NCBI GenBank assembly: GCA_030619905.1 | Contig: JAUXAO010000001.1 | Span: forward strand, 183,051-216,170 | DNA: 33,120 nucleotides | Source of the DNA: a bacterium | GTDB lineage: Bacteria > Patescibacteriota > Minisyncoccia > Minisyncoccales > CG1-02-41-26 | Reading direction: 5' to 3' | Part shown: in pieces, positions 3 to 31,907 of the stretch | How the letters are laid out: every line of letters starts with the position of its first letter | Numbering within the stretch: the stretch's first letter is position 1 | The notes under the pieces: model-generated | What the model saw: only the letters and a program-made list of their open reading frames with translations | Told to the model about the DNA's origin: nothing | Database searches by the model: none | Program-made: the position numbers and the translations under genes

Positions 3-3000
3 GAAGAGGGAGCGACAACTACGACAACTACAGAAGTAACGAGCACTGAGGCAACAACTACTGAGACAATAACCACAGATACAACTACTACTACAGAAAT
101 AATAGAACCAGATGCCGAAGATGCTGGTGCAGAACAAGCGACGACTACTTATGAACAGGCAACGACAACAGAACAAGAGACAGGAGACCAGCAACAAGAG
201 ACAAGCGACGAGGGACAAGAAGAATCAACGACCACTGATGAAGGTATTAGTGATATTCCGCCAGAAGATACTCTTCCCAACATCGATGCTAAAATTATTA
301 TTTGGTATTCCCTCAATGACCAGGATTGGCAGGAATTGGATACTATTTCTGACTACCCATTGTCTAATGCTTTAAATGACGGCTATTTTGAATATGATGC
401 CTCGTTTTTAAAGAGTTGGGATGATATCAAAAATCTTAAGATTAAATTTGAAGGAGTAATTGGCGGAGAAACAAATATCATTGTCTATCTTGATAGTGTT
501 TGGATAGAAACGAATTGCCAGCAACAGGCAACAAGTGACAAGGGACAAGAGACAGGAGAAGGAGAGACAGACGGAGAAGAGATAAGCGATCAAGGAGAAG
601 AGGTAAGCATGGAGGAAGCGACAACTACCGAGACAACAACTACTGAGGCGACGATGACTGAGGCGACGACAAGCGATGAAGAAATCATAGAAGAGACACC
701 AGAGGAGGAAGCCGAAGAAGAAGCTGAAGAGAAACCAATTGAAGAAGAAGTTGAAGAAGTAGAAGAACCAGAAGAGTTAGTAGAAGAACCAGAACCAGAA
801 GAAGAGGAAGAGTCCGAAGAGGAGGAACTCGAAGAAGAACATCAAGGAGAGATTGAATCGTTATCTAAAAAGAATAGCTTTCGAGCAAATGAAAATCCTG
901 AATTTAGATTCAGGTATAAAAAAGTTTATTATAAATTTTTAGCTTTAAATAAAAAACCTGATACTACTTTCAATTTAACTACAACTACCCCAGATATTAC
1001 TACTGCTACAACAACAGCCACTACTAGTGCAACTGTTACTACTTCTACTAGTATTACCACTGCCACTTCCTCTGAAGATTTATCTTTATTTGAGAATAAT
1101 TCTTCTTCTACCAGTTCTACAGTAGAATCTAATAATAGTACTGCTACATCGGCTACCAGTACGGGAGCTACAACTTCAAGTTCAACTACAACTTTAAGCA
1201 ATGATTCTTTTATTAATTCTAATTCGACCTCTACAATTTCTTTTGAAAATCAAATATTAGGCACCCTTATCTCAGAACCTGTTAATAACTCTAATACTAA
1301 TACTTCTACTCCTCCTGTTAAGAATCTTTGGGAAGATATCAAGGTGAATTTGGAGATTAAAGGACCTGATAGTAACAGAAAAGATTTTGATTATAATATC
1401 TCATTTGAGGATAACGGAGATTTTTCAATAGAGCTTGAAAAACCATCTCAATTTCAGCCGGGTCGCTATAAACTTATTTTTACCATTGAAGAAAATGATC
1501 AAACTCAAGAATTTGAACAAACTTTCACTTGGGGTATTTTAGCTATAAATACAAATAAATCTATATATGTTAGTGGTACTTCTGTTAGTGGTACTTCGTC
1601 TAATATTGGCGATACTTCATGGGTAGGCAGTGAAACTGCCTACATACAGATGGCAGCTTTAAGAGATGATGGTCATACCATATGCGATGCGAATCTAAAA
1701 TTAGAAATCATTTTGCCTCAAGGAAATATCACTTATCCAGAAGTCCAAAAGTCAGGCAAGTGTGGACCGGATAATGTTACAGATGTCCCAGATTATTTCG
1801 CTTACTATCAGATAAGCAAAATAGGTATCCATCAGATGAGGTTAACTAATTTAGATAATGGTTATGAAATAGAAGATTCCTTTGAAGTTAGAGATTATGT
1901 TCCTTTTGATGTTGAGAGAATTGGGCCAACTAGAATCTATCCCCCAGCAATTTATGGAATGACTTTAAAAATAAAAGCTAATGAGAATTTTAGCGGACAG
2001 GTGATAGAAAGTGTGCCAGAATCATTTGAGGTTATAGAAGCGAATCAATCGCGAATATCTACGCGAAATGACGCGAAAGAAATTGTTTGGGATGTTAGTT
2101 GGAAGACAAGTGAGGAATATGAACTTTCATATCAGTTCGATGCTCCAAATATAAGTCCCTACCTTTATCTCTTGGGACCATTAGAAATAGGGAGTTTTCA
2201 AGAAATTAGACAATGGCAGGTGGCGGCGGATAGTCCTGATACAATTACTATTGAACAGCAGATAAATATTATTGATCAGGAGTATTCGATAAGTGCTTCC
2301 GTTTTCCTGCCAGTTGATAGCAGGCTTGGTTTGATAAAATGGGATGGAACAAAATATTCCGATGAAACAGTCTATTTTGAAGCTGTGATTAAAACCGATA
2401 ACCCCGAAAGAGACATCTTCGCAGCTCTTTTTGAGGACGGAGAAACAAACCCAGTAACTGCTACCGGAACGGTCAGTCATACTGGAGATACTAACTGGAC
2501 AAGAGAACGATCTGTCAATCCTATTAGTTTATCTGACGGAACAAGCTACACCGTTAGGATTGCAGGCCCTGATACAGATGCTAATTTTTCTATCAAAGCT
2601 GCGCGGTTGATTATTGTTCAGACCGATGAGACCAGTATTACTTCCACTCAAACTCAGATTGAGGTGGGATATAATGCAATTACAACTGATACTTCTTATA
2701 CTTCCACTACTGACCCAAAAATCTATTATTATGATTCTTCAAAATTTGATCCAGCACCAACTGCCTATTTTGAGGCAACAATAAAAAACGACAATATAAC
2801 AGGAGACGCGACAAATACTAGCCCTACTAACTGTGGTCTTGCGGAAAATGTTGATACCGGGGGCAATGACTGGAATGTTGCCAGTAATGGGGCTTGCGAT
2901 GCCACTAACGATACCTATTCTACAGTTACTACTGCTGGCACCACGCCGACCGACTATCTTAAAATCACCAATTTCAATTTTAATATTGCGCCCGGCAGCA

Positions 3001-4427
3001 CGATAACCGGCATTGTGGCAACCATTGAAGCAAATTCTACGAAGGTGGGAGGGAAATTAGCCGATGATTACAATGTGTACATTGTTAAAGGAAGCACCAT
3101 CAGGACAGATTCAACCGATATGGCATACGTGGATGATTGGCCCACTAGTGATGCTGTTAACACCTATCCTAATGGCGGAGCCACCAACAATACCTGGGGA
3201 GTAGCCGAGGGCTGGACTTCTCTTGATATAAATAATTCCGGGTTTGGTTTGGCATTTGAGGTTTACGAAGCAGATAGCAAAGCCTGTGTTGTTTCTGTTG
3301 ATAATATTACTCTTAAGGTTTATTACACTACGCCTGGCGGTGTAGCCACCACCTCTGTGCGGCTTTGGAATAAGACAGATGGACAAGCAGTTACGGGAAG
3401 CGAAATAGCTACCACTACCACCAGCTGGTCGAGGATTCGGAGTTCAGCAATTGCTTCGGCTAATTTCCCGACAGAGAAAGAATATCTGGTTCAAATTCAG
3501 ACCTCTAATGCCGATATTACAGCCCGTATTGCCAATGCCAAAATTATTTTAGACCAAGCAACCGGCACCGGGATAGATAAAGTAGAAATGGTCCATCAGT
3601 ATGTGAATACTACCATCGTGACTGCCAGCAGTTCCTACACAGGAACTGATTTTGATAATCAATATAATCCTGATAACTGGTCTGTCGGATCATTCAACCA
3701 TTATTTTGAGGCAACGTTAAAAAACAGCCCAGATACCACCTATGCTCAGCTTTATGTTACTGGTTATGGTCCAATCATTAATAGTGAGGTGTCGACTACT
3801 AGTGGTTCATATGTGCGGGAAAGAAGCGCTGATCTTTCCAAAAATGGCAATTGGCCAAGTTCTACCAGTACTCTTGATACTCAGATTAAGGGCTCGCCGT
3901 GCTACAGCAGCTACAGCCCGAGTCCTTCCTGGTCTAAAGTGGCTGACACTCTTGTTCGGGATATTGATAACCTTGGGGATTCTGCCGCTACAGTCGACAA
4001 AGATATTTACTGTGACGATTATAATTGCATTCTTTGGAAAAATAACGCTGCCCCTCCCACAACAGTTTGTATTGATTCAGACCCCAATGTTTACGGCAAT
4101 ATTCTTTGGGACAAAACAGATGCATCAAGTGGCACAAACTGGGCTGATATTGATCATTATTCTATTTCTATCTCAGGAGATGAAATAGGAGGAACCCATG
4201 CTCCAGGAACCATAATTGGTGTTAATAACTGGAATATCGGAAATAAGAACTGGCTGGCCCGAGACCATGGAGAAGGTAGCAGTGCCTATCCTGCAATGCA
4301 GGCCTGTATCAATAAAGGAGCAGGTTGGCGATTACCCAATGGTTTGGAATTAGATAGTATTCGAGACCAAGCCAAAGGTTCAGTTCCCTACTCTCGCCTT
4401 CCAAACATCCAGACCGACTTCTATTGA
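3..4427 (+). CDS. Giant surface protein, N-terminal part (5' truncated by window): Thr- and Glu-rich low-complexity segments, Ig/jelly-roll-like domains, C-terminal DUF1566-like domain; ends at an in-frame TGA
   Basis: Frame of the 336..4427 ORF is open back to base 3 with no stop, so the TTG at 336 is not the real start. DUF1566 hallmark 'AMQACINKGAGWRLPNGLELDSIRDQ' near the C-terminus. Confidence 0.85.
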   Translation, partial: EEGATTTTTTEVTSTEATTTETITTDTTTTTEIIEPDAEDAGAEQATTTYEQATTTEQETGDQQQETSDEGQEESTTTDEGISDIPPEDTLPNIDAKIIIWYSLNDQDWQELDTISDYPLSNALNDGYFEYDASFLKSWDDIKNLKIKFEGVIGGETNIIVYLDSVWIETNCQQQATSDKGQETGEGETDGEEISDQGEEVSMEEATTTETTTTEATMTEATTSDEEIIEETPEEEAEEEAEEKPIEEEVEEVEEPEELVEEPEPEEEEESEEEELEEEHQGEIESLSKKNSFRANENPEFRFRYKKVYYKFLALNKKPDTTFNLTTTTPDITTATTTATTSATVTTSTSITTATSSEDLSLFENNSSSTSSTVESNNSTATSATSTGATTSSSTTTLSNDSFINSNSTSTISFENQILGTLISEPVNNSNTNTSTPPVKNLWEDIKVNLEIKGPDSNRKDFDYNISFEDNGDFSIELEKPSQFQPGRYKLIFTIEENDQTQEFEQTFTWGILAINTNKSIYVSGTSVSGTSSNIGDTSWVGSETAYIQMAALRDDGHTICDANLKLEIILPQGNITYPEVQKSGKCGPDNVTDVPDYFAYYQISKIGIHQMRLTNLDNGYEIEDSFEVRDYVPFDVERIGPTRIYPPAIYGMTLKIKANENFSGQVIESVPESFEVIEANQSRISTRNDAKEIVWDVSWKTSEEYELSYQFDAPNISPYLYLLGPLEIGSFQEIRQWQVAADSPDTITIEQQINIIDQEYSISASVFLPVDSRLGLIKWDGTKYSDETVYFEAVIKTDNPERDIFAALFEDGETNPVTATGTVSHTGDTNWTRERSVNPISLSDGTSYTVRIAGPDTDANFSIKAARLIIVQTDETSITSTQTQIEVGYNAITTDTSYTSTTDPKIYYYDSSKFDPAPTAYFEATIKNDNITGDATNTSPTNCGLAENVDTGGNDWNVASNGACDATNDTYSTVTTAGTTPTDYLKITNFNFNIAPGSTITGIVATIEANSTKVGGKLADDYNVYIVKGSTIRTDSTDMAYVDDWPTSDAVNTYPNGGATNNTWGVAEGWTSLDINNSGFGLAFEVYEADSKACVVSVDNITLKVYYTTPGGVATTSVRLWNKTDGQAVTGSEIATTTTSWSRIRSSAIASANFPTEKEYLVQIQTSNADITARIANAKIILDQATGTGIDKVEMVHQYVNTTIVTASSSYTGTDFDNQYNPDNWSVGSFNHYFEATLKNSPDTTYAQLYVTGYGPIINSEVSTTSGSYVRERSADLSKNGNWPSSTSTLDTQIKGSPCYSSYSPSPSWSKVADTLVRDIDNLGDSAATVDKDIYCDDYNCILWKNNAAPPTTVCIDSDPNVYGNILWDKTDASSGTNWADIDHYSISISGDEIGGTHAPGTIIGVNNWNIGNKNWLARDHGEGSSAYPAMQACINKGAGWRLPNGLELDSIRDQAKGSVPYSRLPNIQTDFY

Positions 4428-4545
4428 TGTTCTACCGAGTACAGCAGTACCATTGCCTTCATCATGAATACCAACTATGGTGAGTTTTACGCGTCAGAGA
4501 CATTCCCTAAGTCCCTCAACACGGTCTATGTCCGCTGCGCCCGCG
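4005..4545 (+). other. DUF1566-like (C-type-lectin-like) domain split by TGA at 4425-4427
   Basis: 'DIYCDDYNCILWKN...GWRLPNGLELDSI...LPNIQTDFY*CSTEYSS...VYVRCAR' matches DUF1566 layout (GWRLP...YWSSTEYS...YVRCVR). Confidence 0.7.
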
Positions 4546-7500
4546 AACAAACGGACGTCCCTTCAGTTTCCAACTCCTGGCTGATTATTCAGGCTTCATT
4601 AAAGCCAGCACCTCCTCCCTATATTACTATCTCAGGTACCGTTTATACTGGTGAAGAAACAGGTCCAATTGGTGCTGGCAGAACAGTGAAAGTTAAAATT
4701 AATGGCGATGGTGAGTATTCAACCTCTACTGACTCTGATGGAACCTATTCTATTCCTAATGTGACAATTAACGAAGTTAATGACGTAGTAACTGTTTTTC
4801 TTGTTACCAATAGTTACCAAGAGAGAGCAAACACGGTTACTTTGGCCTCAAGCACTTCAAATAATATCGGGGGTTTAAATCTCTATCAGAACCGAATCAT
4901 TATCCGGCACGAAGGCGATGGCCCCATTACCATTACTGACTTAGACAAATATGATTACGAACAAGATACTGATATTCTGTTTACTGCTTCTTCTACTCCC
5001 GCCACCTTGACCGCTTCCTCAACTTCGGAGTTTTTCATCTGGTCAGGAGATACTTTCCAGACCGGAGGAGCAGGTGGCAATATTTCCTTGTATGATGTAG
5101 ATATTAGAGGAACCTTTACAGCCACTTCTACCCAAACCATTTCTGTTTCTGGTTCTTGGTTTGCTTCTTCTACAGCTACTTTTACTGCTGCCAGTTCCAC
5201 AGTTACTTTTACGGCTACCACAACCGGTAAGACAATCACCACGGCTGGCAATTCCTTTTACAATTTAACTTTCAATGGTTCTGGAGGAGGTTGGACTTTT
5301 CAGGATGTCGCTACTACTTCGGCCACTACCACTATTTCCAACGGCACCCTTAGCCAGGGAGCAAACAATTTTATAACCCGAAGTTTAACTATTGCCTCAA
5401 ATGCCACATTTACTAAAGCAACTGGTGGAGGAATCTTAATCTTTGAAGGCAGTGGCGAAGGGTATTTTGAAGATAGCAATGAAACTAAGAATAATTTAGG
5501 CAATGTCCAGATTGGGAACTCACCAGCCAGCACGAATCTTAAATCAGATTTTTGGGCTGACAGTTTAACTGTTAATAGCGGGGATATCTTCAGAACAAAA
5601 GGGTATGAAGTAAATATTACCAATTACATTACTATCTACGGAACATATGACTGTACTGATACAGGGGGAGAAGGAGACGAAACTATTACTACCTTGGGTA
5701 CTAATTGGACAGTAGATTCTGGCGCAACTTTTACAGCTGCCAGTTCTACTATTACCTTTACGGCCACTACTACTGGCAAGACAATTACCACGGCTGGCAA
5801 TTCCTTTTACAATTTAACCTTCAACGGCCCTGGTGGTGGTTGGACTTTTCAGGACAATACTACTTCTACTAATAACTTTACTATTAGTAACGGCACAATT
5901 ACTGGACCTTCGAGTGGAATTATTGCTGTAGGAAACAATTGGTTAAATGGTGTTACTTGCGATACTTTATCTTATGAAGGTAAAGATTATAATACTGTTT
6001 TGATCGGAGACCAGTGTTGGATGACAGAAAACCTTGATTATGATAATGGTTGTGAGAGCGTAGAATGGGTAAATGATAGTGACGAAGGATGGTGTGGGTA
6101 TTATGATGATGCTGGGTCAGACGATACATATGGTCTGTTATATCAATGGTCAGCAGCAATGAATGGTACTACCACAGAAGGGGCCCAAGGAATTTGTCCT
6201 AGTGGATGGCATATTCCTTCTCATGATGACTGGACTGATTTAGAGCGTCAAATATGTTCTGATATTGGGAATAGTGGATGTGAAACCACTTTTCCTAAAA
6301 ATACTACAACCACTGGATATCTGGGTGATGGAGAAGCACCAGCCATGGCAGCCAGCACAACTCTCTGGTCAGATGGCGCCCTGGAGAGCGATCCTGACTT
6401 TGCTACTTCTGGACTGGATATCCTTCCTGCCGGTTATCGGGACACCGATGGCGCTTACACCTCTCGCAGCGGCTACGCGCTCTTGTGGTCTTCTACTGAG
6501 ACTGGTACTGATGCTTGGTACCGGGTCTTGCGCTACGTTGTCACGGGTGTCTACCGGGCCAGCTACGATAAGGCTAGCGGGTTTTCAGTGCGTTGCCTAC
6601 AAGATTCGCCTGCTGATGGTAATTTTACTCACAATGATTCCACGGTTCGCTTTTATGCCACTGATTCCGGCAATACCATAACCTCTGGCGGCTCTTCTTC
6701 TTTTTATAACCTAACTTTTGATGGCTCCAATGGTGGCTGGACTCTCCAGGACAGCGCTACTTCTACTAATAACTTTACTATTAGTCAGGGGACAGTAACT
6801 TCTACTACCAGCACTCTGGCTGTTGGCGGAGATCTTGATGTGTCTAATGGAACTTTTAAAAATAACTCAGGTAAAGTTTTATTTAATTCTGATTCAACTG
6901 GCAAGAATATTACTACCGGCGGTACAGGTAATTCTTTTCACGATATTGAGTTTAACGGCTCTGGTGGTTGGACTTTTAACACTGGTGACCACGACATTAA
7001 CAACGACTTCACCATTACTAGTGGGACAGTCACTTCTACTCCCGGCACTTTATTAGTTGGCGGAAACTGGCTTAATTCTACCGGAACTTTCAATGCTACT
7101 TCCGGCACGGTAACCTTTGATGCTGGCTCAACTGGTAAAACAATTGACCCTGGTTCTTCTCCTTTTAATATTATTACCTTTGATAATGGCTCTGGCGGTT
7201 GGACAATCACTGCTAATGCTACTTCTACTAATAATTGGAACATGACTAATGCCCAATCTTTTGCGGCTACTTCTTCAATCACTATTGAAGTTAAGGGCAA
7301 TTATATTATTTCTGATTCCATCCCTGCAGTTACTACCTGGAATTCAAACTCCACTTTATATCTCAACAGCGAGTCTGCTTACACGGTTGGCTCTAAAAAC
7401 CAAAGCGCCGAAGCGGAAGAATACGCAACTTTAAAGATTGGAACAAACACTGATATCAGGATGTGGAACTCTACTTCTTCCAATTACACTATTGATGCTT

Positions 7501-8843
7501 CCGGCTCTTTATATTCTCAAGACCACAATTATGAAGATGGCAAACTTCAAATCTGGGGTGATTATCATACCACCTCTACTGATTATTGGAATTATGCTGA
7601 TGATTTTGATGGAGCAGGTAGTGCTAACCGCCCATGCCAGGTAACTATTAACTCTAATACTTCTATTACTGTTGACAGCGGCGAGACTTTGGAAATTAAA
7701 GGAGGAGAAGCTACTTCTTCAGATATTACTATAATTAATGCTTCAGCTTCATGGGATTTAAATAATAATGGGACTACCACTATTCAGGAAGCTACCATTA
7801 ATTACTTAAACCCAGCTACAGGTACTATTACTGTTTTAAATACAACTTTAAACAATGAAGATACTCCTGAGTCTGGTGCCACCCTTAATGTTGACTGGTA
7901 TTTAGGAGGTCATGTAGTTGATGCCAATTCTACTTCTACTGATGTTGTTAATGCTACCACCACTATTTCGGAAGAGAGTACTACTTCTCAATCTACTGTT
8001 TGGGAATGGTCAGGAAGTGGTTGGGGAACAGCTTCAACCACTCAGACTACTTTAACTGATGCTTCAGGCCTTTTTCCTCAGCCCGGCACTAATGGCGCCA
8101 TTCGGATCAGAGAATACTCAGCGACAAGTACGGCTACTACCTATTACAAATATAATTTGGCAATTACAGCTAATGGTTTCAGTAATTATAATTATTATAA
8201 CGATCAAGGAACTAATTATATAGCTTCGGCTTCAAGTAGTGATGGTGATGTTGATACCTGTATTTCTGAAACATGGCAGAGAGATGATATTGATGCTAAT
8301 AATACTGAACAAACCTTAAATGAACCGCCGACCACTGGAACCTGGTATGTTGGTATGGATTCTGACTTGGAGTTTGGAGTGGATTCTTTAACAGTCAACA
8401 TAGGACCTTTAAATGATATCAACAACCTTACGGCCACGGCTACTACCATAACCTATGTTACTAGTACGGCTGGTTATCTAATTCAGGTTTATGATTCGGC
8501 CGGTAATGACGGAACACTGACAGCTACCTCAAGTCCTTTCATTCCTAGATGGGATTATAATAATGATGCTCCTGATCCTTGGGGGACTTACTGTAAAAAC
8601 AATGCCAGTTTTTGCGGCTTTGGTTATACCACTAGTGATGATAATTTAACTGGCGATAACCGTTTCGGTAGTGCCACTGAGTATGCCGGCTTTACCAGTT
8701 CCACTGAACCAGTAGCAGACCGAGGGACAGGTAGCTGGAAGGGCGAACCAGACACTATCACCTACAAGGTCTCTGTTCCTGAAAGCCAGGAACCGGAGAC
8801 GTATGATACGACTATAACGTATGTATGTACTGCTCAATACTAA
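4428..8843 (+). CDS. Continuation of the same reading frame after one TGA: rest of DUF1566-like domain, carboxypeptidase-regulatory-like segment, repeated 'GNSFYNLTFNGSGGGWTFQD' units, internal FISUMP domain
   Basis: ORF 4464..8843 is in the same frame as 3..4427 and codons 4428-4463 are open (CSTEYSSTIAFI). FISUMP motifs 'DYNTVLIGDQCWMTENLDY', 'GICPSGWHIPSHDDW', 'GFSVRCLQD'. Confidence 0.85.
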   Translation, partial: CSTEYSSTIAFIMNTNYGEFYASETFPKSLNTVYVRCAREQTDVPSVSNSWLIIQASLKPAPPPYITISGTVYTGEETGPIGAGRTVKVKINGDGEYSTSTDSDGTYSIPNVTINEVNDVVTVFLVTNSYQERANTVTLASSTSNNIGGLNLYQNRIIIRHEGDGPITITDLDKYDYEQDTDILFTASSTPATLTASSTSEFFIWSGDTFQTGGAGGNISLYDVDIRGTFTATSTQTISVSGSWFASSTATFTAASSTVTFTATTTGKTITTAGNSFYNLTFNGSGGGWTFQDVATTSATTTISNGTLSQGANNFITRSLTIASNATFTKATGGGILIFEGSGEGYFEDSNETKNNLGNVQIGNSPASTNLKSDFWADSLTVNSGDIFRTKGYEVNITNYITIYGTYDCTDTGGEGDETITTLGTNWTVDSGATFTAASSTITFTATTTGKTITTAGNSFYNLTFNGPGGGWTFQDNTTSTNNFTISNGTITGPSSGIIAVGNNWLNGVTCDTLSYEGKDYNTVLIGDQCWMTENLDYDNGCESVEWVNDSDEGWCGYYDDAGSDDTYGLLYQWSAAMNGTTTEGAQGICPSGWHIPSHDDWTDLERQICSDIGNSGCETTFPKNTTTTGYLGDGEAPAMAASTTLWSDGALESDPDFATSGLDILPAGYRDTDGAYTSRSGYALLWSSTETGTDAWYRVLRYVVTGVYRASYDKASGFSVRCLQDSPADGNFTHNDSTVRFYATDSGNTITSGGSSSFYNLTFDGSNGGWTLQDSATSTNNFTISQGTVTSTTSTLAVGGDLDVSNGTFKNNSGKVLFNSDSTGKNITTGGTGNSFHDIEFNGSGGWTFNTGDHDINNDFTITSGTVTSTPGTLLVGGNWLNSTGTFNATSGTVTFDAGSTGKTIDPGSSPFNIITFDNGSGGWTITANATSTNNWNMTNAQSFAATSSITIEVKGNYIISDSIPAVTTWNSNSTLYLNSESAYTVGSKNQSAEAEEYATLKIGTNTDIRMWNSTSSNYTIDASGSLYSQDHNYEDGKLQIWGDYHTTSTDYWNYADDFDGAGSANRPCQVTINSNTSITVDSGETLEIKGGEATSSDITIINASASWDLNNNGTTTIQEATINYLNPATGTITVLNTTLNNEDTPESGATLNVDWYLGGHVVDANSTSTDVVNATTTISEESTTSQSTVWEWSGSGWGTASTTQTTLTDASGLFPQPGTNGAIRIREYSATSTATTYYKYNLAITANGFSNYNYYNDQGTNYIASASSSDGDVDTCISETWQRDDIDANNTEQTLNEPPTTGTWYVGMDSDLEFGVDSLTVNIGPLNDINNLTATATTITYVTSTAGYLIQVYDSAGNDGTLTATSSPFIPRWDYNNDAPDPWGTYCKNNASFCGFGYTTSDDNLTGDNRFGSATEYAGFTSSTEPVADRGTGSWKGEPDTITYKVSVPESQEPETYDTTITYVCTAQY
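5950..6618 (+). other. FISUMP (Fibrobacter succinogenes major paralogous) domain
   Basis: 'CDTLSYEGKDYNTVLIGDQCWMTENLDYDNGC...YGLLYQWSAAMNG...GICPSGWHIPSHDDWTDLE...LPAGYR...LLWSSTET...GFSVRCLQD'. Confidence 0.85.
6430..6605 (+). other. Candidate DGR-type variable region at the end of the FISUMP domain
   Basis: GC-rich, A-poor stretch in an AT-rich gene; variable codons TAC, GTC, CGC, GTT, GGT, GCC, AGC, GAT are reachable from AAC/AAT by changing A only. No RT or template repeat found in the window. Confidence 0.5.
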
Positions 8844-29150: not shown

Positions 29151-30506
29151 ATGGATTTAACTCAAAAAATTATTTCTCTTTGTAAAAGACGCGGTTTTAT
29201 CTTTCCTTGTTCTGAAATCTATGAAGGATTAGGAGGGGTTTATGATTTTGGGCCTTTAGGAGTGGAATTAAAGAATAATCTTAAAAAAACCTGGTGGGAA
29301 GAAATGATTAAAAACCATGATGATATTGTCGGCTTAGATGCTGCGATTTTGATGAATCCACAAGTATGGAAAGCATCTGGCCATTTGAGCGCTGGTTTTG
29401 CTGATGAATTAATGGAGTGTAAAGATTGTCGTAAACGGTTTAAATTCGATGAATTAAATGGAGATAAATGTCCGGAATGCGGCGGGAAATTAGGCAAACC
29501 TAGAAAATTTAATTTAATGATGAAAACCTATGTTGGGCCGGTTGAAGATGAAGCAACTGTTACCTATTTGCGGCCAGAAACCTGCCAAGGGATTTATATC
29601 AATTTTTTGAATGTTATGAGTTCAATGCGCCTCAAAATTCCATTTGGCATGGTTCAAATTGGTAAAGCCTTTCGGAATGAAATTAACCCCAAAAATTTTG
29701 TCTTTAGGACTCGGGAATTCGAGCAAATGGAAATGGAATGGTTCTGTCATCCTAAAGAGGCAAACAAATACTTTGATTATTGGAAAGAGGAAAGATTAAA
29801 GTGGTATCAAAAACTGGGAATGCGAAAGGAAAATTTAAGGGCTAAAGAAATTTCAAAAGAAGAAAGAGCTCATTATGCTAAGAGACAAATAGATATTGAA
29901 TACCATTTTCCTTTTGGCTGGGGAGAGATTGAAGGGGTTCATAATCGGGGAGATTGGGACCTTAAAAACCATTCAAAATATTCCGGAAAAGATTTGAGCT
30001 ATACAGAGGAAGATGGCTCCAAATACTACCCATATATTATTGAAACTTCAGTCGGAGTGGAAAGAGCTCTTTTTGCCTTTTTATTCGAGGCCTATCAGGA
30101 GATTAAAGGGGGGAGGACAACTACCACAGAATCAGCTAAAGAAGTTGAAGTTTTGTTAAAATTACCCAAATCTTTGGCTCCCATAAAGATTGCTGTGCTG
30201 CCGCTTGTTAAAAATAAGCCAGAGATTGTCAAAAAAGCAAAAGAAGTTTATCAGTTATTAAAACCTTATTTTGTCTGCCAATATGATGAAGTAGGCTCGA
30301 TTGGCAGAAGATACCGAAGAGTTGATGAAGTGGGTGTCGTTGCCTCGATTACATGTGATTTTCAAACATTGGAAGATAATACAATCACAATAAGAGAAAG
30401 AGATAGTATGAAACAAATAAGAGTTGAAATCTCAAAATTACAAGAAGTAATTCAAAAAATTCTTAAGGGAAAAAATTTTTTAGAGCTCGGAAAACTTGTT
30501 AAATAA
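29151..30506 (+). CDS. glyQS: Glycyl-tRNA synthetase (alpha2 type)
   Basis: 'KRRGFIFPCSEIYEGLGGVYDFGPLGVELKNNLKKTWWEEMI', 'CQGIYINFLNV', 'IGKAFRNEINPKNFVFRTREFEQMEMEWFCHP', 'ETSVGVERALFAFL'. Confidence 0.97.
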   Translation: MDLTQKIISLCKRRGFIFPCSEIYEGLGGVYDFGPLGVELKNNLKKTWWEEMIKNHDDIVGLDAAILMNPQVWKASGHLSAGFADELMECKDCRKRFKFDELNGDKCPECGGKLGKPRKFNLMMKTYVGPVEDEATVTYLRPETCQGIYINFLNVMSSMRLKIPFGMVQIGKAFRNEINPKNFVFRTREFEQMEMEWFCHPKEANKYFDYWKEERLKWYQKLGMRKENLRAKEISKEERAHYAKRQIDIEYHFPFGWGEIEGVHNRGDWDLKNHSKYSGKDLSYTEEDGSKYYPYIIETSVGVERALFAFLFEAYQEIKGGRTTTTESAKEVEVLLKLPKSLAPIKIAVLPLVKNKPEIVKKAKEVYQLLKPYFVCQYDEVGSIGRRYRRVDEVGVVASITCDFQTLEDNTITIRERDSMKQIRVEISKLQEVIQKILKGKNFLELGKLVK

Positions 30507-30512
30507 TTTCAA

Positions 30513-30790
30513 CTATTTCTCTATCAGTTTTTTTATATTTATAAATACTTTATTAAAATCGAGACTCGAAATTTTACATATTTTTTTGAGAATGTAAAGT
30601 GGTATTCTATTTTTTCTTACTCTCCAGGCAGAAAAAGTAGCCTTATGGATTTCTAAAAATTTAGCACAATTTTGATCTCTCCCAAACCTTTCCCTTATTT
30701 TTTAAGGGTAGCCTTGTATTTTTACTAACATATTTACCAATACAGGTTGGGAAAGCTGAAAGTTTAATTTTACCTTGGTCTTTCAAAATT
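30513..30790 (-). pseudogene. Possible remnant of an HTH-containing gene, frameshifted
   Basis: Minus strand reads '...KIRERFGRDQNCAKFLEIHKATFSAWRVRKNRIPLYILKKICKISSLDFNKVFINIKKLIEK*' (30701 to 30513); an upstream segment in another frame reads 'KIKLSAFPTCIGKYVSKNTRLPLKNKGKVWERSKLC*'. Confidence 0.4.
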
Positions 30791-30858
30791 TTTAAATAAG
30801 TTCTTATATAACTCTAACTATGATAACTAAAATGATTTTAAATAAGGAGAGAAATAAA

Positions 30859-31806
30859 ATGAGATGTCCAAATTGCGGAAACCAAAATGTAGTCAAAAAA
30901 GGCAGAAGAAAAACTAAATTTGGGTTCAGGCAATTTTATTATTGCAAAGATTGCGAAAAAGGGTTTGTCGGCAGCAAGCTCCCCCATAAAACTTATGGCC
31001 CAAAAATTATTATCAGTGCTGTTAGTTATTACAATCTTGGCAATACACTGGAAACATCTGCTAAACTTACCAACAGAAGATTTAAGGTTAAGGTTTCCAA
31101 AAGTTCTGTCAGCCAATGGTTGAAAGAGCTAAAATATATCTGCACATACAACAAAATCAGACCGGAAGTAGCAAAAAATTATGACCAAGCGATTTTGATC
31201 AGTAAAACTTTTAAGCATAATGATTTAGCTTATAATTTTAAATACCATAAACCAAAATTAGAAATGTTTTGTAGAAATAATGACTTTTTTCCTCTGGCGA
31301 TATATATCAAAAATTTTGAAAAGGGCTGCCCTGATTTTTTTGATGATATTAAAAACAGATGTTCTCAGACAAAGATTAAAGTCAACATTAAAAAAGAGAG
31401 CAGATATAATAATGCTTGTCGGTTAGCTGAGTTTGCTTTGAAATCTTGCGATGTCAGTTCTAAAAGGCACTCAGTGGTTGAAAATTTTATGCTTACTAAT
31501 GATTCTTCAACTATTGCCTGCGAAGTGCCAGTCTGGCTTTGGGAGAAAAATCTGGATATGGGAATAAGCGGGCATGTTGATATTTTGCAAATTAGGTCTA
31601 ATAAAATATATGTTTTAGATTTTAAGCCAAATGCGTTAAGAGAAAATGAACAAAAAGTTGCCTCCCAGCTTTTTTGGTATGCCTCAGGTTTATCGTTTAG
31701 AACTTCTATCCCGTTTAAAAATTTTACCTGTGCTTGGTTTAATGATAAAATTTATTATAAGTTTAACCCAGCAGATACAAAAGTTAGATTTTTAAGAAGC
31801 AACTAA
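30859..31806 (+). CDS. Zinc-ribbon + HTH (transposase-like) fused to RecB-family PD-(D/E)XK nuclease
   Basis: N-term 'MRCPNCGNQNVVKKGRRKTKFGFRQFYYCKDCEKGF' plus 'TSAKLTNRRFKVKVSKSSVSQWLKE'; C-term 'IACEVPVW...GHVDIL...IYVLDFKPN...SQLFWYA' (E, GhxD, DxK, QxxxY). Start at 30859 from SD AAGGAG. Confidence 0.8.
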   Translation: MRCPNCGNQNVVKKGRRKTKFGFRQFYYCKDCEKGFVGSKLPHKTYGPKIIISAVSYYNLGNTLETSAKLTNRRFKVKVSKSSVSQWLKELKYICTYNKIRPEVAKNYDQAILISKTFKHNDLAYNFKYHKPKLEMFCRNNDFFPLAIYIKNFEKGCPDFFDDIKNRCSQTKIKVNIKKESRYNNACRLAEFALKSCDVSSKRHSVVENFMLTNDSSTIACEVPVWLWEKNLDMGISGHVDILQIRSNKIYVLDFKPNALRENEQKVASQLFWYASGLSFRTSIPFKNFTCAWFNDKIYYKFNPADTKVRFLRSN

Positions 31807-31879
31807 TTTTGTCTCTAGAGTAGGCAATGGATTTAGGAAGGAATTTAGTTCTGATTGGAAGAGTGTGAAGATAAAACAA

Positions 31880-31907
31880 GTGACCCATTTTGGAAATTTT
31901 ATATAAT
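31880..31907 (+). promoter_or_regulatory. Putative promoter GTGACC-N16-TATAAT upstream of the 31939 gene
   Basis: GTGACC 31880-31885, TATAAT 31902-31907, ATG at 31939. Confidence 0.45.

Follow-up and report, generated by a model that had tools for sequence, protein, structure and literature searches.

What kind of enzyme is encoded by a gene that begins like a transposase and ends like a recombination nuclease? The question is raised by an open reading frame (ORF) in a 33,120-nucleotide stretch of contig JAUXAO010000001.1 from a bacterium of the phylum Patescibacteriota; this whole stretch is referred to below as the window. A sequence-only reading had described the product as a transposase-like zinc-ribbon/helix-turn-helix (HTH) segment fused to a RecB-family nuclease, and had proposed a site-specific nuclease, a defense effector or a mobile-element-derived enzyme. 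The fusion is borne out by profile matches and by AlphaFold2 and Foldseek, and we propose, with about an even chance of being right, that the gene encodes a homing-endonuclease-like mobile nuclease of new architecture. Among the three functions, a mobile-element-derived or site-specific nuclease is favored because the family has a patchy spread over two domains of life, includes decayed copies and is in part nested in split inteins; no defense context was seen. The family is apparently undescribed; it is patchy in Patescibacteria and occurs also in the archaeon Altarchaeum.

The reading frame of 315 residues is genuine as judged by ORF calling and homologue alignment. Alignments with homologues begin at the ATG at 30859, downstream of the Shine-Dalgarno-like AAGGAGAG that had been taken as the gene's own ribosome-binding signal, and a further in-frame ATG lies before it, at 30820, with no stop codon in between. 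Between the window and Torokbacteria copies dN is 0.125 and dS is 0.91 (dN/dS ~0.14); the gene is under purifying selection, and is therefore not a chance ORF.

The protein consists of a zinc ribbon and HTH (residues 1–98), a middle region and a RecB/Cas4/RecE-like PD-(D/E)XK core. At the N-terminus, the NCBIfam IS1 transposase model matches residues 3–98 (E=1e-6, a score under its curated cut-off) and the IS1/IS1595 zinc-binding domain matches residues 3–37, with the four zinc-ribbon cysteines invariant across the family alignment. This part had been assigned to the IS1/IS6 type: the IS1/IS1595 likeness stands, while IS6 gave a weak match only. The IS1/IS1595 zinc-binding domain is matched by every one of the 12 family members (12/12), and Pfam PDDEXK_1 by eight of them (best E=5e-7); in the Pfam search the window protein by itself does not reach the PDDEXK_1 threshold. 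All four nuclease motifs named from the sequence could be placed, as E222-VPV, G238-H-V-D241, L-D254-F-K256 and Q270-xxx-Y274, together with the helix residue H204, and the predicted active site comprises H204, D241, D254, K256, Q270 and Y274. In the family alignment H204, E222 and D241 are invariant, and D254 and K256 are nearly so, being absent only from truncated rows.

AlphaFold2 models the window protein with a mean pLDDT of 87 and places HTH helices at residues 48–59, 64–75 and 81–90. The 50 Foldseek matches listed against the PDB include DinG, RecE, Cas4 SSO0001, AddAB and MGME1 for the nuclease part and NrdR for the zinc ribbon, and the top matches in a search of viral models are PD-(D/E)XK nucleases (best E=5e-5). 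The 50 listed Foldseek matches contain no DDE enzyme. A DDE transposase was rejected on the grounds that (i) the IS1 profile match ends at residue 98 and (ii) the C-terminal half matches PDDEXK_1 in family members and RecB/Cas4-like structures; the earlier suggestion that there is no recognizable DDE core where one would be expected is upheld. With the InsA-type N-terminus of IS1/IS1595 transposases the protein shares the four-Cys zinc ribbon and HTH (residues 3–98), but it differs from these enzymes in having a PD-(D/E)XK nuclease, with neither a DDE catalytic core nor terminal repeats found. With Cas4/RecB/RecE nucleases, including solo Cas4, it shares the fold and the motif order H, GxxD, DxK, QxxxY. 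Membership in Cas4 was nevertheless rejected, as TIGR00372 scores 16.1 bits versus a cut-off of 65 and the Fe-S cysteine set is missing when the alignment is judged against the known Cas4 arrangement: the family alignment has no conserved C-terminal cysteine cluster, and its four invariant N-terminal cysteines are those of the zinc ribbon. Also unlike Cas4, the family has a transposase-type N-terminus, and no CRISPR context was noticed.

Across 380 genomes of the phylum, the nuclease profile has any match in 17, of which 11 are strong; among the first 100 relatives searched three matched, namely the window genome itself and two relics. Nuclease relics lie in two patescibacterial genomes, G049 and G027. 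Close relatives of the window protein occur in Torokbacteria (76% at the amino-acid level) and Altarchaeum (65%); the latter has a single intact copy alongside a near-full but decayed one, an N-terminal fragment and weaker fragments. The Altarchaeum nuclease contig also encodes what we take to be an archaeal-type L12/P1 protein, and misbinning is therefore unlikely. The tree resolves a short form (window, Torokbacteria, Altarchaeum) and a long form (nine genomes). The window's own class has one other member, which sits in the long-form group, and a constraint uniting the two was rejected (p-AU 7e-9); a clade test for the host family of G100, G202 and G454 was borderline (p-AU 0.057) and is not used as proof of transfer. 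The plasmid and phage collections gave no protein match. Viral contigs gave only short phage PD-(D/E)XK nucleases that are akin to the C-terminal domain and do not have the zinc ribbon (L043:7719-8300; L044:7740-8294); one of these adjoins an Erf/RecT-like gene, as read by eye from its ORFs.

The long-form members have a constant companion, in that all nine (9/9) adjoin a gene for a predicted four-helix bundle. In the 380 genomes the bundle family reaches E<1e-47 in exactly nine, always adjoining the nuclease, and the next best match has E=2e-24. The model of the bundle protein (pLDDT 87) has four helices and finds its best structural match in an S23-family protein, with Avd of diversity-generating retroelements (DGRs) listed lower down; one bundle member matches Pfam 23S_rRNA_IVP (E=4e-6). 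The likeness to S23, 23S rRNA-IVP and Avd proteins lies in the predicted four-helix fold. DGR Avd systems have a linked reverse transcriptase, whereas RVT_1 is absent from nine of the 11 genomes here and lies on another contig in the other two; a DGR was rejected because no reverse transcriptase is linked to the nuclease or bundle genes in these 11 genomes. A four-helix-bundle gene was looked for beside the window copy and none was found; the description "lone gene" fits this copy, although the long-form members are never without the partner.

In three genomes (G100, G202 and G231) a fibre-like Peptidase_S74 (S74) surface gene contains a split intein whose two halves flank the nuclease and bundle genes. 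The gene order is S74, HINT-N ending in a stop, nuclease, bundle, HINT-C and a conserved C-terminal domain, with HINT-N carrying C1 and TxxH and HINT-C ending in HN-T. The split-intein halves, nuclease and bundle are separate ORFs in all three; in G100 and G202 these abut, overlap or lie close, suggesting that they may be translationally coupled. Between G231 and G100 the module is 56–67% identical (HINT-N 60, nuclease 67, bundle 63, HINT-C 56), compared with 39% for the flanking S74 part and 30% for the C-terminal domain, ~30% for rplJ and 65% for rplL. In G143, from the same family as G231, S74 is followed by the C-terminal domain with no intein, beside rplJ and rplL; this locus is an intein-free allele, though not a precise empty site. 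The intein model has no match anywhere in the window genome.

Another reading is an effector or toxin-like nuclease freed by intein/HINT processing, with the solo copy in the window as an orphan. It would agree with the NYN nuclease domains carried by HINT domains of giant surface proteins and with weak matches to Pretoxin-HINT models, but the sequence after HINT is the surface protein's conserved C-terminal domain rather than a variable toxin, the nuclease has an ORF of its own, and an immunity gene was not recognized; we regard this reading as very unlikely.

The surface-protein connection extends beyond the split inteins. An S74 gene is found in seven of the nuclease genomes, always as a single gene, and in every case (7/7) it lies ~3 kb or less from the nuclease, a proximity with a chance of ~3e-15 under random placement. 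In G454, G329 and G128 the nuclease is just downstream of a surface gene, and an intein is absent from that position. The gene next downstream of the window nuclease encodes a repetitive exported-type beta-propeller protein, that of both near-full Altarchaeum copies a NosD beta-helix repetitive exported-type protein, and LamG is found near the nuclease loci of G320 and G027. Long repetitive surface proteins (S74/fibre, beta-propeller, NosD beta-helix, LamG) are consistently nearby, as they would be if the enzyme were a host-serving recombination nuclease that cuts in or near surface-gene repeats, where gene conversion among repeats diversifies the surface protein; RecE and AddAB, relatives of the core, work in recombination. 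We nevertheless consider such a role unlikely, since most S74 genomes have no nuclease (S74 is present in 91 of the 380 genomes, any nuclease-profile match in 17) and since decayed copies and nesting in split inteins are what one typically sees with a selfish gene.

The same linkage would arise if the nuclease were a passenger in a permissive hot spot by surface genes, with another role such as phage or plasmid defense. The junction between glyQS and an M16 peptidase gene, where the window copy appears to lie, carries different surface-type genes in relatives, and eight of the 12 family members give weak matches to Argonaute-associated Cas4-like nuclease models. However, no PADLOC match is better than ~2e-5, no Argonaute or other defense gene was recognized among the neighbors read, and a hot spot does not predict the intein nesting, so that we judge this account to be quite improbable.

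For the homing-like mobile nuclease that we propose, the steps would be as follows. The IS1-type zinc ribbon and HTH would bind DNA and provide targeting, and the PD-(D/E)XK core would make its cut within a surface-protein gene or next to one, at a conserved site or close to it. Repair templated by the nuclease-bearing copy would then spread the gene, as in intronless or intein homing. The long-form members would travel with the four-helix-bundle partner, and in three genomes split-intein splicing would spare the host surface protein. The domain architecture, the purifying selection, the patchy distribution over two domains of life, the decayed copies, the linkage to surface genes and the nesting in split inteins, with intein-free alleles in related genomes, are observed; DNA cleavage, sequence specificity, homing and continued mobility of the window copy we infer. 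Precedents exist both for homing genes that stand free between conserved genes and for free-standing endonucleases that act together with splicing elements (PMC6083498).

Several observations weigh against this proposal. First, neither an intein nor a partner gene accompanies the window copy, which is separated from the Torokbacteria copy by heavy synonymous divergence, so that transfer between these two was not recent. Second, the core is more like recombination exonucleases and Cas4 than like known site-specific homing endonucleases, no Foldseek match against the PDB falls below E=0.001, and no target site for the nuclease was identified. Third, function or a permissive insertion hot spot could likewise account for the surface-gene linkage; the glyQS–M16 junction carries other surface-type genes in two relatives. 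Finally, no convincing terminal inverted repeats or target-site duplications, the latter among the checks suggested in the sequence-only reading, were found at the nuclease copies, whose exact ends are undefined. This last result also bears on the idea that the gene is an autonomous insertion sequence whose DDE transposase was replaced by a PD-(D/E)XK enzyme. The IS1-type DNA-binding half and the several copies in Altarchaeum would suit such an element; with no convincing repeats or duplications, a single copy in the window genome and no near-identical copies in the genomes examined, we think it most improbable.

The homing-like nuclease can be set beside known systems. Homing endonucleases form six or so catalytic families, and a PD-(D/E)XK family is among those known (PMC3943268, PMC6083498). 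I-Ssp6803I, a homing endonuclease of this type, shares a restriction-type catalytic core in a mobile gene, but has another DNA-binding end and resides in a group I intron, whereas relatives of the window protein reside in inteins; it gave no match in a search of PDB chain sequences and is not among the 50 Foldseek matches listed. "Fractured genes" with split inteins and free-standing endonucleases are attributed to Dassa et al. 2009, as cited in PMC10448857. G100, G202 and G231 share with them a free-standing nuclease ORF between split-intein halves in a host gene. The differences are a Cas4/RecE-like nuclease that carries an IS1 end and is accompanied by a four-helix-bundle partner, and the lack of an intein at the window copy. 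The endonucleases of those fractured genes are reportedly Vsr-like. Each ingredient thus has a precedent, and what appears to be new is the joining of an IS1-type end, a Cas4/RecE-like core, a bundle partner and split inteins in patescibacterial surface proteins; in the papers searched we found no description of that combination, nor of inteins with such nucleases in Patescibacteria.

More tentatively, and with the probability on the low side, the family may represent a new mobile nuclease class in which a transposase half, a Cas4/RecE-like core and an obligate bundle partner spread split inteins into giant patescibacterial surface proteins, as part of a wider set of inteins with unusual nucleases (also NYN) in the LAGLIDADG slot. 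If the homing-like reading is true, the combination of core, IS1-type end and bundle partner would add a new construction to homing endonucleases, would provide a means of tracing gene flow between Patescibacteria and Altarchaeota, and would tie mobile genes to the large surface proteins through which these small cells may contact their hosts.

At the window locus itself (Table 1), the nuclease gene is a solo, short-form, free-standing member beside a surface gene. In G002, G013, G014 and G023 the M16 peptidase gene lies directly 3' of glyQS, and in G001 and G005 other surface-type genes occupy the junction. Contig C4 of the window genome opens with matching repeats, its beta-propeller gene ends at 2762, and an M16 gene follows. 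Assuming that contigs C7 and C4 are adjacent, as we infer from these sequences, the HTH remnant, the nuclease and the surface gene would form an island between glyQS and M16. The adjoining HTH gene was correctly read as a remnant; searches of Pfam and NCBIfam gave no family match for it. Sequence homologous to the Altarchaeum copy continues beyond the nuclease stop codon, and the same is seen against the second, decayed Altarchaeum copy.

Table 1. Positions of the nuclease gene, its predicted domains, neighboring features in the window, and inteins in other genomes.
Feature	Position	Strand	Evidence or remark
Nuclease gene, IS1-type zinc ribbon and HTH fused to PD-(D/E)XK	30859..31806	+	ORF, family alignments, AlphaFold2 model
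Shine-Dalgarno-like AAGGAGAG	30844..30851	+	Sequence
Zinc ribbon, residues 1-37 (C3, C6, C29, C32)	30859..30969	+	NCBIfam IS1_IS1595_Zn; NrdR structural matches
HTH, residues 45-98	30991..31152	+	NCBIfam IS1 match 3-98; weak Pfam HTH_33
RecB/Cas4/RecE-like PD-(D/E)XK core, residues 200-302	31456..31764	+	PDDEXK_1 in 8/12 members, structural matches, motif residues
glyQS, left border of putative island	29151..30506	+	M16 peptidase gene directly after it in four relatives
Degenerate HTH-like gene remnant	~30516..30698	-	Read-through translation, stop codons upstream in frame
3' non-coding stretch alignable with Altarchaeum copy	31807..31907	+	blastn
Beta-propeller surface gene, cut by contig end	31939..33120	+	Pfam beta-propeller families; remainder probably G000:C4:3-2762
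Inteins in giant surface proteins	L143:2744-3784, 5192-6271 (G454); L145:1017-2216 (G434); L144:879-2078, 2511-3710 (G217)

Further features were observed around inteins and nuclease loci. Other inteins occur in giant fibre-like patescibacterial surface proteins, with up to four HINT matches per protein; in three of them an NYN nuclease domain, in frame, occupies the endonuclease slot (E<1e-17), and another has an unassigned insert. In G231 an NYN gene (L034:7604-8450) separates HINT-N from the nuclease. It follows a short ORF that looks like the nuclease N-terminal leader, as though it had been inserted into or beside that leader. A LAGLIDADG-like ORF, recognized by eye, is found in G468 (L032:3596-4345) several kb from the nuclease. 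A small gene family lies near the nuclease in G329 and G128 (L033:1138-1548; L039:1518-1997), and one member matches Pfam LPD3 at the cut-off. Three imperfect 25-base repeats (GGCAACGRATxxxGGAA) are present downstream of the Altarchaeum nuclease (L001:6960-7112). The window begins with two very long Thr/Ser-rich exported-type proteins (3-8843).
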